From: Vicinamibacteria bacterium
GTDB taxonomy: Bacteria; Acidobacteriota; Vicinamibacteria; Fen-336
Direction of reading: 5' to 3'
Length of the DNA stretch: 37,639 nt
NCBI GenBank assembly: GCA_023701125.1
Contig: JAMPXO010000039.1
Span: 1-37,639 of the forward strand
How positions within the stretch are numbered: position 1 is the stretch's first letter; each line of letters starts with the position of its first letter. Shown piece after piece: positions 1-20,071 of this stretch. Made by a program: the position numbers and the translations under genes. A model generated the notes under the pieces. It was not told the origin of the DNA, ran no database searches, and was given only the letters and a program-made list of their open reading frames with translations.

Positions 1-203
1 CAGGCTCTGCCTGGCGCGAGCCGCCCGACGGGGGTTCGGGGGCGGAGGAGCGTCCGTTCGCGACGGAGCCCCCGAGGGCCCGAGCGTCAGGCTCTGCCTG
101 GCGCGAGCCGCCCGACGGGGGTTCGGGGGCGGAGGAGCGTCCGTTCGCGACGGAGCCCCCGAGGGCCCGAGCGCCAGGCTCTGCCTGGCGCGAGCCGCCC
201 GTG
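1..203 (-). repeat. In-frame tandem 87-bp structured repeat array (family member 1)
   Basis: The array has a period of exactly 87 bp. A 29-bp partial unit (1-29) is followed by a full unit (30-116) and a final unit (117-203) whose last two bases differ. Units are nearly identical; the one difference seen is T versus C at 87/174. Each unit begins GGGGGTTCGGGGG and ends GCCGCCCGAC, boundaries defined by the single copy at 5444-5530. Hairpin 1 is TCCGT-TCGCG-ACGGA. Hairpin 2 is GCGCCAGG-CTCTG-CCTGGCGC, perfect 8 bp in the copy at 171-191 and with one G-T pair in the other. 87 bp is 29 codons, and the minus-strand frame of the GNAT-like gene runs through the array with no stop. The array may continue past the left edge. 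Confidence 0.9.
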
Positions 204-4104: not shown

Positions 4105-4820
4105 CCCGCGCGGCGCGGCGCGCCGTGGGGGCCGCGTTCGTCTTGCTGCTGCTGGCCATCGTCGCCGCCCACGCCGCGCGCCTGCTCGCCCGCTCGCGCA
4201 CGACGCAGCTCTTCGGCCGGCTCGTCCACCGCGTCGACACGTCGCAGCGGGTCGTCGCCCTCACCTTCGACGACGGCCCGAACGCGGCCACGGTCGAGGC
4301 GATCCTGGCCCCGCTGGCGCAACGCGGGGTGAAGGCCACGTTCTTCGTCAACGGCGTGCAACTGGAACGCCACCCCGACGCCGGGCAACGCCTGGTGGCC
4401 GCTGGCCACCAGCTCGGCAACCACTCCTTCTCGCACCGGGTGATGGTCCTCAAGTCGCCGGCCTTCATCCGCGAGGAGATCGAGTCGACCGACCGCCTGA
4501 TCCGCGCGGCCGGCTACGCGGGCCCGATCCGCTTCCGACCACCCAACGGCTACAAGCTGGTGCTGCTGCCCTGGTTCCTGCAGCGCACGGGCCGCACGTC
4601 GGTGACGTGGGACGTCGAGCCCGAGTCGTCCGATCCAGACGCGATCGTGCGCCACGCCGTCGAGCACACCCGCCCGGGCTCCATCGTCCTGCTCCACCCG
4701 TGGTACGCGCCGAACGAGCCCACCCGCGCGGCCTTGCCCGCGCTGCTCGACGGCCTCGCCCAGCGCGGCTTCCGGTTCGTCACGGTCGACGAGTTGCTGG
4801 CGCTGCGCGAGACGCAGTGA
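4101..4820 (+). CDS. NodB-type polysaccharide deacetylase, membrane anchored
   Basis: This 239-residue carbohydrate esterase of family CE4 has an N-terminal membrane anchor (GAAFVLLLLAIVAAHAA). NodB motifs are visible in order: TFDDGPN at 55-61 with catalytic base and metal Asp, HSFSH at 108-112 with the two metal His, RPPNG near 146 in place of the common RxPYG, WDVEPES, and LLHPWY in place of the usual LLHD near the C terminus. The family removes N- or O-acetyl groups from peptidoglycan, chitin oligomers or exopolysaccharide, here presumably outside the cytoplasmic membrane. GTG 4101 overlaps the kinase stop in a GTGA junction and the gene's own stop overlaps the next GTG, implying translational coupling. 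The polymer it acts on is not determinable. Confidence 0.9.
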   Translation: MTRAARRAVGAAFVLLLLAIVAAHAARLLARSRTTQLFGRLVHRVDTSQRVVALTFDDGPNAATVEAILAPLAQRGVKATFFVNGVQLERHPDAGQRLVAAGHQLGNHSFSHRVMVLKSPAFIREEIESTDRLIRAAGYAGPIRFRPPNGYKLVLLPWFLQRTGRTSVTWDVEPESSDPDAIVRHAVEHTRPGSIVLLHPWYAPNEPTRAALPALLDGLAQRGFRFVTVDELLALRETQ

Positions 4821-6460
4821 AGCGGCCGATCGTCGTCGGCGCACTGTTCGCGCTGGCAGCAACCGCGGCAGCGGGCGGGGACGGCGCGCTGGAGGCGGCC
4901 GAGCGCGCGTACGCGGTGTGGCGCACGCTCGCCGACCGAGTGGAACTGACGACCGCCCGCAACGCCGAGGCCGATCTCGACGGCACGCCGCGGCCCCGGC
5001 TCGAGCAGCGGCGCGACGCGGCGCGTGAGCGTGCGGTCGCAGAGGTCGCGCGCATTGGCGCAGGGGAGGCTCGCGACGCCGAGTCGCAGCGGGTGCTCAC
5101 CCTGGTGCGCGAGGGACTCGCGTCCGACATCATCGGAGACCCGGCGAGCGGGGACGCCGCCGCTCGCGAAGCACTGTACGCCGCGTTCGGGACCGCGGCG
5201 GCCGCCCTGCCGTTCGAGAGCGGGACGCTCGACCGCCTCACGATCCTCGGCCGGCTCGGCCGCGAGCCGGACCGCGAGCGGCGCCGGCAGTTGTTCTTCG
5301 CGCTGGCCCCGCTGTGGCGGGCCGTGAACGGCGACGGCGGAGCCGCCAGCCCCTACCGCCGGCTGCTGCCGGCCTCCGCCCGAGCCTGGCGCGAGCACGG
5401 TTCGCCCGTGGAGCGCGGGTTCCGCGCGTTGAGCGTCGCCCCTGGGGGTTCGGGGGCGGAGGAGCGTCCGTTCGCGACGGAGCCCCCGAGGGCCCGAGCG
5501 TCAGGCTCCGCCTGGCGCGAGCCGCCCGACATTGAACGCTGGCTCGTGCGGCTGCTGGAGGCGTGGCGCGATCACGCGGCGGTGGCGGGCGAGCCGTGGG
5601 ACTACTGGCACGCGGCCGGCGCCACCAGTCGCGCGCTCAACGCGGCAGTACCCCGCGAGCGCCTGCGCGCGATCAACGACGCCTACCACGCGAGCCTGGG
5701 CGCGGCGCCCGAGGCGATCGGCCTCCGTTACGACCTCGACCCGCGGCCCGGCAAGACGCCGGTCGCGTTCACGACCTACGGATCGCGCGAGCGCGCCGAG
5801 GCCTGGGTGTTCGCGACTTACGCCGAAGGCGGCTTCGACAACCTGGTCGAGTTGTTGCACGAGACCGGCCACGGCCTGCACGTCCTCGCCACGTTCGCGA
5901 TGCGGCCGGCGTTCCGCGACTGGCCCGACGCCGACCCATTCACCGAAGGCGTCGGCGACCTGCTCGCCCACGAGGCGTACGAGGTCGAGTGGCAGCAGCG
6001 CTGGCTGGGCACTGCGGTCTCGCCGCGCGACGCGTTGCGCGCGAAGTACGCGGGCGTCGCCCTCGACGTGGCGTGGGCCCTGTTCGAGATCCGCCTGCAC
6101 CGCGACCCCGAAGCCGACCCGAACGTCGTGTGGACGGCGATCACGTCGGAGTACCTGAAGATCGCCCCTCACCCGGAGCTGTCGTGGTGGGCGCTGCGCG
6201 GGCAGCTCGTGGAGTCCCCCGGCTACATGGCGAACTACGCGGCCGGCGCGTTCGTCACCGCGGCGCTGCGGGAACGCGTCCGCGCGGCGCGGGGTCCGAC
6301 GGCGATGACGGGCGGCGACGCCGGACTGCACGCCTGGCTCGCGCGAGACCTGCTCCGCTTCGGGCGCGCGCGGCCCACGGCCGAGGTGCTGGCCGGGTTC
6401 CTCGGCGGGCCGCTCGACCCCGAGCCGCTGCTGCGCGACCTGGCCCGCGCCCGCGACTGA
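4817..6460 (+). CDS. M3-like zinc metallopeptidase with an in-frame 29-residue repeat insertion
   Basis: This 547-residue secreted protein has an N-terminal signal (MKRPIVVGALFALAATAAAG; GTG start inside the preceding stop as GTGA). The catalytic half carries HETGH at 348-352 within LVELLHETGHGLHVL and EGVGDLLAHE starting near 377 with the third zinc ligand, the gluzincin arrangement of the M3 thimet oligopeptidase/carboxypeptidase clan. The N-terminal half is helical and weakly conserved. Residues 210-238 (GGSGAEERPF to SAWREPPD) are encoded exactly by one 87-bp repeat unit, phase-aligned at its first codon, so the gene appears to have gained this stretch by insertion without losing frame. 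A similar SARAWRE lies just upstream, perhaps an older partial copy. It ends the plus-strand operon. Oligopeptide cleavage is a family inference. Confidence 0.85.
   Translation: MKRPIVVGALFALAATAAAGGDGALEAAERAYAVWRTLADRVELTTARNAEADLDGTPRPRLEQRRDAARERAVAEVARIGAGEARDAESQRVLTLVREGLASDIIGDPASGDAAAREALYAAFGTAAAALPFESGTLDRLTILGRLGREPDRERRRQLFFALAPLWRAVNGDGGAASPYRRLLPASARAWREHGSPVERGFRALSVAPGGSGAEERPFATEPPRARASGSAWREPPDIERWLVRLLEAWRDHAAVAGEPWDYWHAAGATSRALNAAVPRERLRAINDAYHASLGAAPEAIGLRYDLDPRPGKTPVAFTTYGSRERAEAWVFATYAEGGFDNLVELLHETGHGLHVLATFAMRPAFRDWPDADPFTEGVGDLLAHEAYEVEWQQRWLGTAVSPRDALRAKYAGVALDVAWALFEIRLHRDPEADPNVVWTAITSEYLKIAPHPELSWWALRGQLVESPGYMANYAAGAFVTAALRERVRAARGPTAMTGGDAGLHAWLARDLLRFGRARPTAEVLAGFLGGPLDPEPLLRDLARARD
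5444..5530 (+). repeat. Single exact 87-bp repeat unit inserted in frame in a coding sequence (family member 2)
   Basis: This copy runs from GGGGGTTCGGGGG to GCCGCCCGAC. It differs from the units at 30-203 by little more than CTCCG instead of CTCTG in the loop of hairpin 2. Being solitary, it defines the unit ends. It begins on the first base of a codon of the metallopeptidase gene and spans exactly 29 codons. It is read here on the strand opposite to that used in the GNAT-like gene, so the element is open in both orientations. Confidence 0.9.
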
Positions 6461-6461
6461 C

Positions 6462-6503
6462 CGACGGAGCCCCCCTTGTGACCGGTGGCGGGCTCCGCCC
6501 GAC
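6462..6503 (+). repeat. Truncated 42-bp repeat unit between convergent genes (family member 3)
   Basis: The stretch starts CGACGGAGCCCCC and ends CCGCCCGAC. It matches the second half of the repeat unit, most closely the 17.4-kb type through GACCGGT and CGGGCTC.GCCCG, and lacks the G-rich first half. It begins 1 bp after the metallopeptidase stop and ends 15 bp before the stop of the convergent S41 gene. A weak hairpin (CGGG-CTCCG-CCCG) is possible, so it may serve as the 3' end structure for one or both transcripts. Confidence 0.65.
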
Positions 6504-6518
6504 GCCAGAACCCGATGA

Positions 6519-16832: not shown

Positions 16833-17432
16833 ATGACCCGAATCGCGAAGATGTCGCTGCTGGCGGCCGCGGGAGCGGCCACCCTCTCCGTGCTGGCCCT
16901 GGCCCACGGCTCCGCCTCGGCCGACACCGTGATCGTGCCCGTCGGTACGGCGATCCCGATCCGGTTCGAGACCGCGATCTCCACCGCCTCGAGCCGCGCC
17001 GGCGACCTGGTCGTCGCCCGCGTGCGCGAGGACGTGCGGATCGATGAGCGAGTGGCGATCCCCGCGGGCAGCGAGGTGCGCGGGACCGTCGTCGGCGCGC
17101 GCCGCGCGGGCAAGGTCGAGGGCACCGCGCGGCTGTCGGTGCGCTTCGACTCCGTGGAGATCGGCGGGCGCCGCCACTCGCTCGACTCCCCCGCGCTGAC
17201 GCTGGTCGGCCGCAAGACCACGGGCCGCGACGCAGCGACGGTCGGCGTCGGCACCGGCGCCGGCGTCGTGGTCGGCGCCCTGCTCGACGGCGGTGACGGG
17301 GCGAAGAAGGGAGCGCTGATCGGCGCGGCAGCGGGTGGTGGCACCGTGCTCGCGACGCGCGGACCCGACGTCGCGTTCCCGGCCGGCGCCCGTTACCGCC
17401 TGCGGTTGGCCTCCCCGCTGCCCGTGCGCTGA
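16833..17432 (+). CDS. Secreted glycine-zipper protein of unknown function
   Basis: This is a 199-residue protein. The N-terminal signal is SLLAAAGAATLSVLALA with cleavage near ASA-DTV. The central part (VPVGTAIPIRFETAISTASS, RAGDLVVARVREDV, VAIPAGSEVRGTVV) resembles a beta-barrel segment found in conjugal-transfer TrbI-like and DUF5666-like secreted proteins, where a polar cargo strand is followed by ARLSVRFDSVEIGG. Near residues 137-175 a glycine-rich stretch (VGVGTGAGVVVGALLDGG, KKGALIGAAAGGGT) has the GxxxG spacing of YMGG-like glycine zippers, suggesting membrane insertion or oligomerisation in the envelope. The stop at 17432 is followed after 2 bp by the 84-bp repeat array. Confidence 0.75.
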   Translation: MTRIAKMSLLAAAGAATLSVLALAHGSASADTVIVPVGTAIPIRFETAISTASSRAGDLVVARVREDVRIDERVAIPAGSEVRGTVVGARRAGKVEGTARLSVRFDSVEIGGRRHSLDSPALTLVGRKTTGRDAATVGVGTGAGVVVGALLDGGDGAKKGALIGAAAGGGTVLATRGPDVAFPAGARYRLRLASPLPVR

Positions 17433-17434
17433 CC

Positions 17435-17737
17435 GTCGGGTTCCGGTGCCGGGCAGAGCCCGGAACCGGTCCCATGCGGGCTCCGTCGCGTACGGAGCTC
17501 CTCCGCCCCCAAACCCCCGTCGGGTTCCGGTGCCGGGCAGAGCCCGGAACCGGTCCCATCGCGGCTCCGTCGCGTACGGAGCTCCTCCGCCCCCAAACCC
17601 CCGTCGGGTTCCGGTGCCGGGCAGAGCCCGGAACCGGTCCCATGCGGGCTCCGTCGCGTACGGAGCTCCTCCGCCCCCAAACCCCCGTCGGGTTCCGGTG
17701 CCGGGCAGAGCCCGGAACCGGTCCCATCGCGGCTCCG
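17435..17737 (-). repeat. Tandem 84-bp structured repeat array, alternating variants (family member 4)
   Basis: Three full 84-bp units (17435-17518, 17519-17602, 17603-17686) and a 51-bp partial unit (17687-17737) are arranged head to tail. Units 1 and 3 carry CATGCGGG where units 2 and 4 carry CATCGCGG, so the array is really a 168-bp dimer repeated. On the minus strand each unit starts GGGGGTTTGGGGGCGGAGGA and ends GGAACCCGAC, clearly homologous to the 87-bp units elsewhere. Hairpin 1 is GCTCCGT-ACGCG-ACGGAGC, perfect 7 bp. Hairpin 2 is CCGGG-CTCTG-CCCGG inside GGTTCCGG and CCGGAACC arms. It fills the gap between two plus-strand genes and starts 2 bp after a stop codon. Confidence 0.93.
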
Positions 17738-18831: not shown

Positions 18832-20004
18832 CTAGGGGCGGCCGGGCGCCTCCGCGGCGTCCGAGGCAGCGGCTTCCATCGTGGCCCCGACCCGCGGCAG
18901 CAGCCGCGGCGGGATCACCACGGGCGTCTCCTGCACCGACACGCGCTGCATCGGGATGCGCAGCGAGTTCCCGGCGCGCAGGAAGGAACCGCGCATGCCG
19001 TTCGCCTTCTTGATCGAGGTGGTCGACACGCCGTAGCGGCGCGCGACGGTCGAGATCGTGTCGCCCTTCCGAATGCGGTACCGGATGGAAGGCGGGGGCA
19101 GCACGCCCTGGTCGACCAGTTGCTTGTGGTTGGCGCGCGCGCAGTCCTGGGCGACCGGGTTGAAGAAGCGGACGTGGAGGTGGTTCTGGTGCCGGCGCTC
19201 GTGCTGCAGGATCGCGTCCATGCCGTTGCGGTGGCGACCGATCAGCTCGTCGAGCCAGTCCGGGTCTTCGCCGATCTCGCGGGCGTGAGCCAGCAGCGCC
19301 CGGATCAGGATGCGGTCGAGGAAGATGCGCTCGACGTCCGTCTCGGTGACCAGCGCCCGCACCAGCGCCCACGTGCGCGGCACGTCGAGCGTCTTCGCGG
19401 TCGCGTTGCGGAAGTCGCCCGCTTCGCCCACCGCGTAGTAGAGGCCGAGGTCGACGTCGCGCCCGCTCTGGTGCGACTTGTGGCGATTGAGGCGGCCGCC
19501 GTCGCGGCGGCTGATGTCGCCGACGACCAGCCGCGGCGAGTCCGGGAACTGGCGCTGCACGGACTCGATCGCGCGCTGCAGGTAGTCGACGGTCTCCTGG
19601 GTCCCATAGGTCTCGACGGGGTTGCGGATGGTCCAGAACGCGCTTTCGGGCATCGCCACGGGGTTCAACAGCAGCCCGGCGTCCGGGGTGCCGATCGAGA
19701 GCGAGACCGGAACCGGCGCCGCCGGTTCGTGTGGGGCATCCAGCTCGGGCTCGGAGCCGATCTCGTCGCCGACGGGTTCCGACGCCGGGATGAACCCGGC
19801 GCCGGTCGCTTGGGGGTCGCCGGGTTGTGCCGGTTCTGCGCCGGCCGCCGGGGCGGGGGCCGCAACCTGCGACGCCGCGGGCAGGGCCACGGCACAGGTC
19901 ACGGGCACCGGCGCGGGCAGATCGCGGGCGGCGACTGGCAGCGCGAACGCGCACAGCAGCCCGCTCAGGAGCGGACGAGAGCGGAGCGGCAGGCGCAGAC
20001 GCAT
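18832..20004 (-). CDS. Murein endopeptidase MepA-like (M74) fused to a LysM domain
   Basis: This is a 390-residue periplasmic or secreted protein. ATG 20004 gives a signal sequence (PLLSGLLCAFALPVAA); ATG 20025 is an alternative. A Pro/Ala-rich linker spans roughly 28-110. The catalytic domain then shows HKSHQSGRDVDLGL (175-188), supplying the HxxxxxxD zinc pattern, and HLHVRF (275-280) with the second His pair, as in penicillin-insensitive murein endopeptidases that cut D-Ala-mDAP cross-links. A single LysM (YRIRKGDTISTVARRYGVS to LRIPM, about 309-351) should tether it to glycan. E. coli MepA has no LysM, but such fusions are common in other phyla. It converges on the exchanger gene with 10 bp between stops. 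Cell-wall remodelling is a confident family inference. Confidence 0.9.
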   Translation of the reverse strand: MRLRLPLRSRPLLSGLLCAFALPVAARDLPAPVPVTCAVALPAASQVAAPAPAAGAEPAQPGDPQATGAGFIPASEPVGDEIGSEPELDAPHEPAAPVPVSLSIGTPDAGLLLNPVAMPESAFWTIRNPVETYGTQETVDYLQRAIESVQRQFPDSPRLVVGDISRRDGGRLNRHKSHQSGRDVDLGLYYAVGEAGDFRNATAKTLDVPRTWALVRALVTETDVERIFLDRILIRALLAHAREIGEDPDWLDELIGRHRNGMDAILQHERRHQNHLHVRFFNPVAQDCARANHKQLVDQGVLPPPSIRYRIRKGDTISTVARRYGVSTTSIKKANGMRGSFLRAGNSLRIPMQRVSVQETPVVIPPRLLPRVGATMEAAASDAAEAPGRP

Positions 20005-20071
20005 GAAGTCCTGATTGTGACCCATCCCTGGGTGAGTTTGGGGCGGGACGCCGATTTTCCCTGAGTGGGGA

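Follow-up and report, generated by a model that had tools for sequence, protein, structure and literature searches.

The window, the whole 37,639-nt stretch of DNA analysed here, holds a head-to-tail array of an 84-bp unit (17433-17737, + strand) that begins immediately 3' of a stop codon (17430-17432) and comprises 3.6 units, three of them complete and one truncated at its 3' end. The left boundary of the array is the pentamer CCGTC (17433-17437, +), a tag or target-like sequence with the family consensus CC[GA][TA]C, after which unit 1 runs for 79 bp from GGGTT to AACCC (17438-17516, +) and is followed by a 5-bp spacer, CCGTC. Units 2 and 3 occupy 17522-17600 and 17606-17684 on the same strand, and of unit 4 there is the 5' part (17690-17737, +), in which hairpin 2 is retained and the 3' part is gone. 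In unit 1, hairpin 2, whose stem covaries, spans 17443-17469 (+; arms 17443-17454 and 17458-17469), and hairpin 1 spans 17480-17498 (+; arms 17480-17486 and 17492-17498) and is formed here, without covariation across the family.

Further copies lie elsewhere in the window. At its left edge, 2.3 units of an 87-bp type (1-201, - strand) are in frame within a GNAT-like acetyltransferase gene that starts near 577 on the - strand and has its C-terminal half on another contig, C194. The contig of the window (C183) and C194 both begin in one in-frame array (window 1-201; L180:1-170) and, if the two are joined by their matching array ends, as we infer, the array would run in frame from the N-terminal to the C-terminal half of the protein. 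The presence of the two halves on separate contigs indicates that the array broke the assembly; several further contigs of the same MAG likewise terminate within unit arrays. A single complete 87-type unit (5446-5527, -) is in frame within a gene for a distant M3/M32 metallopeptidase (4817-6460, +), a 3'-truncated copy (6462-6513, -) sits between convergent genes, and another 3'-truncated copy (19774-19816, +) is in frame within an M74 peptidase/LysM gene (18832-20025, -).

From GGGTT (or GGGCGG) to AACCC, units of the family span about 79-82 bp, with CC[GA][TA]C in front; they contain hairpin 2 and a second arm whose closing stem is GGGGGC/GCCCCC, and in arrays they adjoin via a constant 5-bp spacer. 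Hairpin 2 is found in every unit of the window and has a stem of about 12 pairs, the first being C-G, which differs by type as stated in a preliminary description of this DNA: CCGGG/CCCGG in the 84-bp and CCAGG/CCTGG in the 87-bp type. A first alignment of 35 units gave two-sided changes at 7 pairs of this hairpin. Pair changes were then counted on a tree of complete units, 172 distinct ones drawn from three genomes, with 40 tree-based simulations that preserve branch and column rates as the null. Covariation in hairpin 2 is well above chance, with 34 independent two-sided changes where the simulations averaged 2.7 and reached 6 at most. Few pairs reach significance individually, most single-pair covariation E-values under the tree-based null falling short, and hence it is the pooled event count that carries the covariation claim. 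Hairpin 1 (TCCGT/ACGGA), which the preliminary description had also taken to covary, showed no two-sided change in either alignment (null mean 0.6 for the 172 units); one particular pair fails to form in 22 of the 35 units first aligned, and pair 46-58 does not form in 69% of the 172, because most copies read TACGT..ACGGA. The loop of hairpin 2, described as fixed (CTCTG or CTCCG), in fact varies, the + strand showing CAGAG, CGGAG, CGAAG, CAAAG, ATGAA or GTGAA. A stem that had been missed, T/C-GGGGGC with GCCCCC-A/G, encloses hairpin 1 and does covary (5 two-sided events, null maximum 1); it is degenerate in the 84-bp units of the window (GCGGGC, CGCGGC).

As had been proposed, selection on a folded single strand, RNA or DNA, is indicated by the compensatory changes seen in hairpin 2 and this outer stem, though not for hairpin 1. 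The added claim that selection acts on the fold rather than on primary sequence was overstated, since the latter is also strongly conserved (84% mean column identity of the unit alignment). Pairs 9-29 and 12-26 of hairpin 2 retain a mismatch in 34-49% of copies. The - strand folds slightly more stably than the + strand, in 75 of 90 cases by RNA energies and in 146 of 172 by DNA energies, a difference that is not decisive, and its fold has more G-T wobbles.

Scanning genomes with a covariance model built from the units, as suggested in the preliminary description, revealed at least 150 units in the 5.4-Mb MAG that holds the window, with all scored candidates matching. Units were also present in ACD1 and ACD2, the Vicinamibacteria/Acidobacteriota MAGs that are the remaining two genomes of the genus, absent from 57 other relatives searched with the same model, and found in no other genome of a 297-genome phylum sample, for which few candidates were scored per genome; IMG/VR viral contigs had no exact unit match. 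All three genomes of the genus (G000, that of the window, G001 and G002) are fragmented MAGs. In the 1.33 Mb of G000 around the matches, 181 matches fell into 140 arrays, and the arrays of this genome were single in 109 cases, double in 24 and of 3 to 5 units in the remainder. Mean unit identity was 96% within an array versus 84% between arrays, and arrays therefore probably grow mostly by local duplication.

Mapping of flanks between genomes identified 46 arrays with an orthologous empty site in another genome of the genus, with some flanks 97-99% identical between G001 and G002. The left boundary of the unit is sharp, CC[GA][TA]C and then GGGTT, and some empty sites already contain the pentamer. 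The clearest case pairs a filled site, CCCCGAC[GGGTT...AAACCC]CCGAC, with an empty CCCCGAC. Exact 5-bp flanking repeats show a weak, modest excess (12 of 136 arrays versus 5.1 expected, p=0.0016). The 4-mers most common in front of the unit are CGTC (31/136), CATC (23) and CGAC (21), the tag being partly native target. Arrays often start 1-5 bp past a stop codon, and they are enriched where genes converge: such gaps make up 12% of intergenic bases but hold 33 of the 114 intergenic arrays. Some copies retain the 5' end and hairpin 2 without the 3' part. From these sequence comparisons, the units very probably constitute a dispersed, mobile, non-autonomous family of palindromic repeats that acts like bacterial REPs and Rickettsia palindromic elements (RPEs). 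Because the units would be mobile, their structure may persist through the spread of copies that fold, with no host function implied. At one locus (L100:2457-2537), a full unit in G001 is matched in G002 (L209, near 18380) by only its first ~20 bases, so that an internal deletion, rather than an empty site, is probable. Near the end of one gene, G000 and G002 have units in opposite orientations (L114:13250-13325 and L219:10654-10730) where G001 is empty, which suggests independent insertions at one hot spot.

Genes were called with our own codon-usage caller, by which 53 of 169 arrays (about 31% of those examined) were intragenic, a count in which some copies near gene ends may be wrongly assigned. 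The reading frame is continuous on both sides of the array in 52 of these 53. Among single copies, the unit length is 1 mod 3 for 37 of the 41 within genes versus 42 of the 79 outside (Fisher p=3.5e-5) and, among all units, for 48 of 53 versus 70 of 134 (p=2.9e-7); intragenic copies keep the frame because a copy together with the 5-bp junction lengthens the gene by 84 or 87 bp, that is, 28-29 residues. In a set with less bias, the 11 insertions whose empty counterpart lies within a gene of a relative, 9 still form one open frame (e.g. 1283 versus 1255 codons). At L220:3640-3982, four head-to-tail 87-bp units are in frame in a 6.8-kb gene of G002 and add about 116 residues. Orientation was unbiased: inside genes, 28 arrays point the same way as the gene and 25 the opposite way, and between codirectional genes the corresponding counts are 26 and 34. 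Most of the intragenic insertions (41 of 53) fall into two phases, phase 0 where the orientations agree and phase 2 where they differ; on our reading, these follow the target motif, in which the RWC (or GWY) triplet then forms a codon.

Host genes encode RecQ, CydD, MsrA, AMP-ligases, an MFS transporter, a DUF2332 protein, an M28 peptidase and a propeller kinase, with Pfam, NCBIfam and PDB homology flanking the insert on both sides. Alignment of RecQ to the solved structure 4tmu ends at residue 365 and restarts at 393 on adjacent template residues, so that the insert (366-392) corresponds exactly to the repeat. CydD scores 583 bits with its unit, the cut-off being 435, and in the MFS protein the insert lies, by comparison with NorA, in the central loop. 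In the cases examined, inserts occupy loops or linkers.

Comparison with known systems places the family near, but outside, several of them. In several species, REPs tagged with GTAG or CGTC, the Rickettsia elements among them, sit within genes, and no dedicated transposase goes with the CGTC repeats (PMC3733652). Like RPEs and intragenic REPs (Di Nocera et al. 2013, PMC3733652), the units are dispersed high-copy palindromes, many of them in frame in real protein genes, to which they add tens of residues, and they also occupy gene ends; some of those families likewise lack a dedicated transposase. In contrast to them, the units occur in another phylum, are two-armed and 84-87 bp long instead of a single 20-40 bp hairpin, form head-to-tail arrays with a fixed 5-bp spacer, and have demonstrable orthologous empty sites. 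Given the genus-restricted distribution, descent from RPE families is unlikely, and we liken the units to RPEs by behaviour, not by sequence. With the CGTC-tagged superfamily (PMC3733652) they share 5-nt loops and the lack of an associated transposase, and may share an unpaired tag at one end (CGTC being the commonest 4-mer, 31/136), whereas the CGTC REP stem is of 8-9 bp and starts with A-T, not C-G with about 12 pairs, and those REPs occur mainly as head-to-head dimers and not, as here, head to tail with an 84-87 bp period and a second arm. RAYTs recognise REP hairpins in single-stranded form that carry a conserved tag and, in E. coli, mismatched stem positions (PMC8266576). The units also have a hairpin beside a short conserved flank and retain stem mismatches, making recognition as single-stranded DNA possible, but their flank is CC[GA][TA]C and not GTAG, and the three genomes have no Y1 transposase. 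As in bacterial MITEs, the units are small, non-autonomous, often beside genes and possibly bounded by a 5-bp duplication; unlike in MITEs, whose terminal inverted repeats are of 15-30 bp, the inverted ends are of only about 5 bp (GGGTT/AACCC), there is an internal covarying hairpin, and no parent transposon was found. A CRISPR array was discarded because the units abut with a constant 5-bp spacer, not unique spacers. The family thus behaves like known intragenic REPs/RPEs but fails defining features of each, and we regard it as a new two-hairpin family with head-to-tail arrays.

The search for a mover gave mostly negative results. No Y1 (RAYT/TnpA_REP) transposase was detected in G000, G001 or G002 even at E<=1, the control search in E. 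coli being positive, and no DDE_Tnp_1 was detected in the three genomes; reverse transcriptase was absent from G000 and G002 and present in G001 only as a broken copy. Tyrosine recombinases were set aside, the Xer-like pairs and a few others found not consistently adjoining units. The IS110-like gene present in all three genomes is only a weak lead, since relatives that lack the repeat have IS110 genes too. In G000 it is a single DEDD recombinase gene (L108:1168-2247, -) about 3 kb from a two-unit array, with similar single genes in G001 and G002. An autonomous parent element was also sought, but the 5' partial copies are truncations and none was seen flanking a transposase gene.

Copies occupy CCRWC-like sites both between and inside genes. 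We propose that the stem would be selected since a trans-acting mobilising enzyme recognises the folded single strand, DNA or RNA; the fold is most likely kept through such recognition. Surviving insertions would be those at the least harmful spots: past stop codons, in gaps where genes converge, and in protein loops with the frame kept. Tentatively, then, this could be a genus-specific element whose spread needs a folded single strand and a mover other than the known Y1/RAYT, with a length of 84/87 bp shaped by survival in reading frames, and it would amount to genome-scale ORF invasion in Acidobacteriota. An ordinary MITE, that is, a cut-and-paste deletion derivative moved by a DDE transposase with 5-bp duplications and a fold without a role, would be a narrower form of the same explanation and is a possibility of similarly limited weight: the excess of 5-bp repeats at the flanks, weak but significant, the one clean empty site with CCGAC duplicated and the GGGTT/AACCC ends as inverted repeats would all suit it, but these ends are of only about 5 bp, neither DDE_Tnp_1 nor an autonomous relative was seen, and internal hairpin covariation is unexpected if only ends are needed.

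Strong covariation in hairpin 2, together with the frequent position 1-5 bp past stop codons and the enrichment between convergent genes, could instead reflect a structured cis-acting or small RNA family kept for a host function (at transcript ends, in mRNA stability or as protein-binding RNA), as the preliminary description had implied. We consider this improbable given that one third of the arrays are intragenic and in both orientations, that insertions are polymorphic among close relatives, that the lack of orientation bias relative to flanking genes counts against a directional cis-RNA, and that neither a terminator-like site, looked for in the window array, nor any Rfam match, in a covariance-model scan of the window at gathering thresholds, was found. 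Covariation may also arise without selection if template switching at quasi-palindromes rewrites one arm to match the other, and perfect-stem variants do occur, such as GAGTGACGGGA-GTGAA-TCCCGTCACTC at L185:11463-11544; yet such arm correction should erase the mismatches that so many copies keep at pairs 9-29 and 12-26, and the loop and tag are conserved too, which leaves this an unlikely source. A host-derived arm at L185, examined as a test of template switching, was rejected: the gene in the sister genome ends just before the unit, and hence the arm belongs to the element. That the inserts are protein-level repeats kept for a useful 28-29 residue peptide is scarcely credible, despite the preserved frame and the in-frame tandem copies (the four at L220), since most copies lie outside genes and those inside, read in both orientations and several frames, give unrelated peptides, so that no particular peptide is selected.

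On the preferred reading, of a mobile palindromic family, covariation, commonly taken as a sign of functional RNA, can stem from a mobile element. Rickettsia palindromic elements and CGTC REPs are old puzzles, mobile palindromes in protein genes whose mover is not known, and this genus offers a large fresh set in which orthologous empty sites, well-defined left ends, truncated copies and closely related genomes make target, duplication and mover testable. Practical effects include short-read assemblies broken at arrays and 28-residue inserts in proteins including RecQ and CydD. A second, related repeat with a long perfect stem and a GTGAA loop, GGCGGCTCGCGCCGGGAGTGAATCCCGGCGC...GGCTCCGTCGC..GCTCCTCCGCCCA, has copies at L126:2882-2941 (-), L206:1623-1682 (-), L096:11527-11586 (+) and L108:8043-8096 (+). 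It at times adjoins or nests with the main family. At L122:14333-14408 (-), a unit-like repeat is followed directly by an inverted GTGAA-loop hairpin (CTCGCCGGATTCACTCCGGCGAG).
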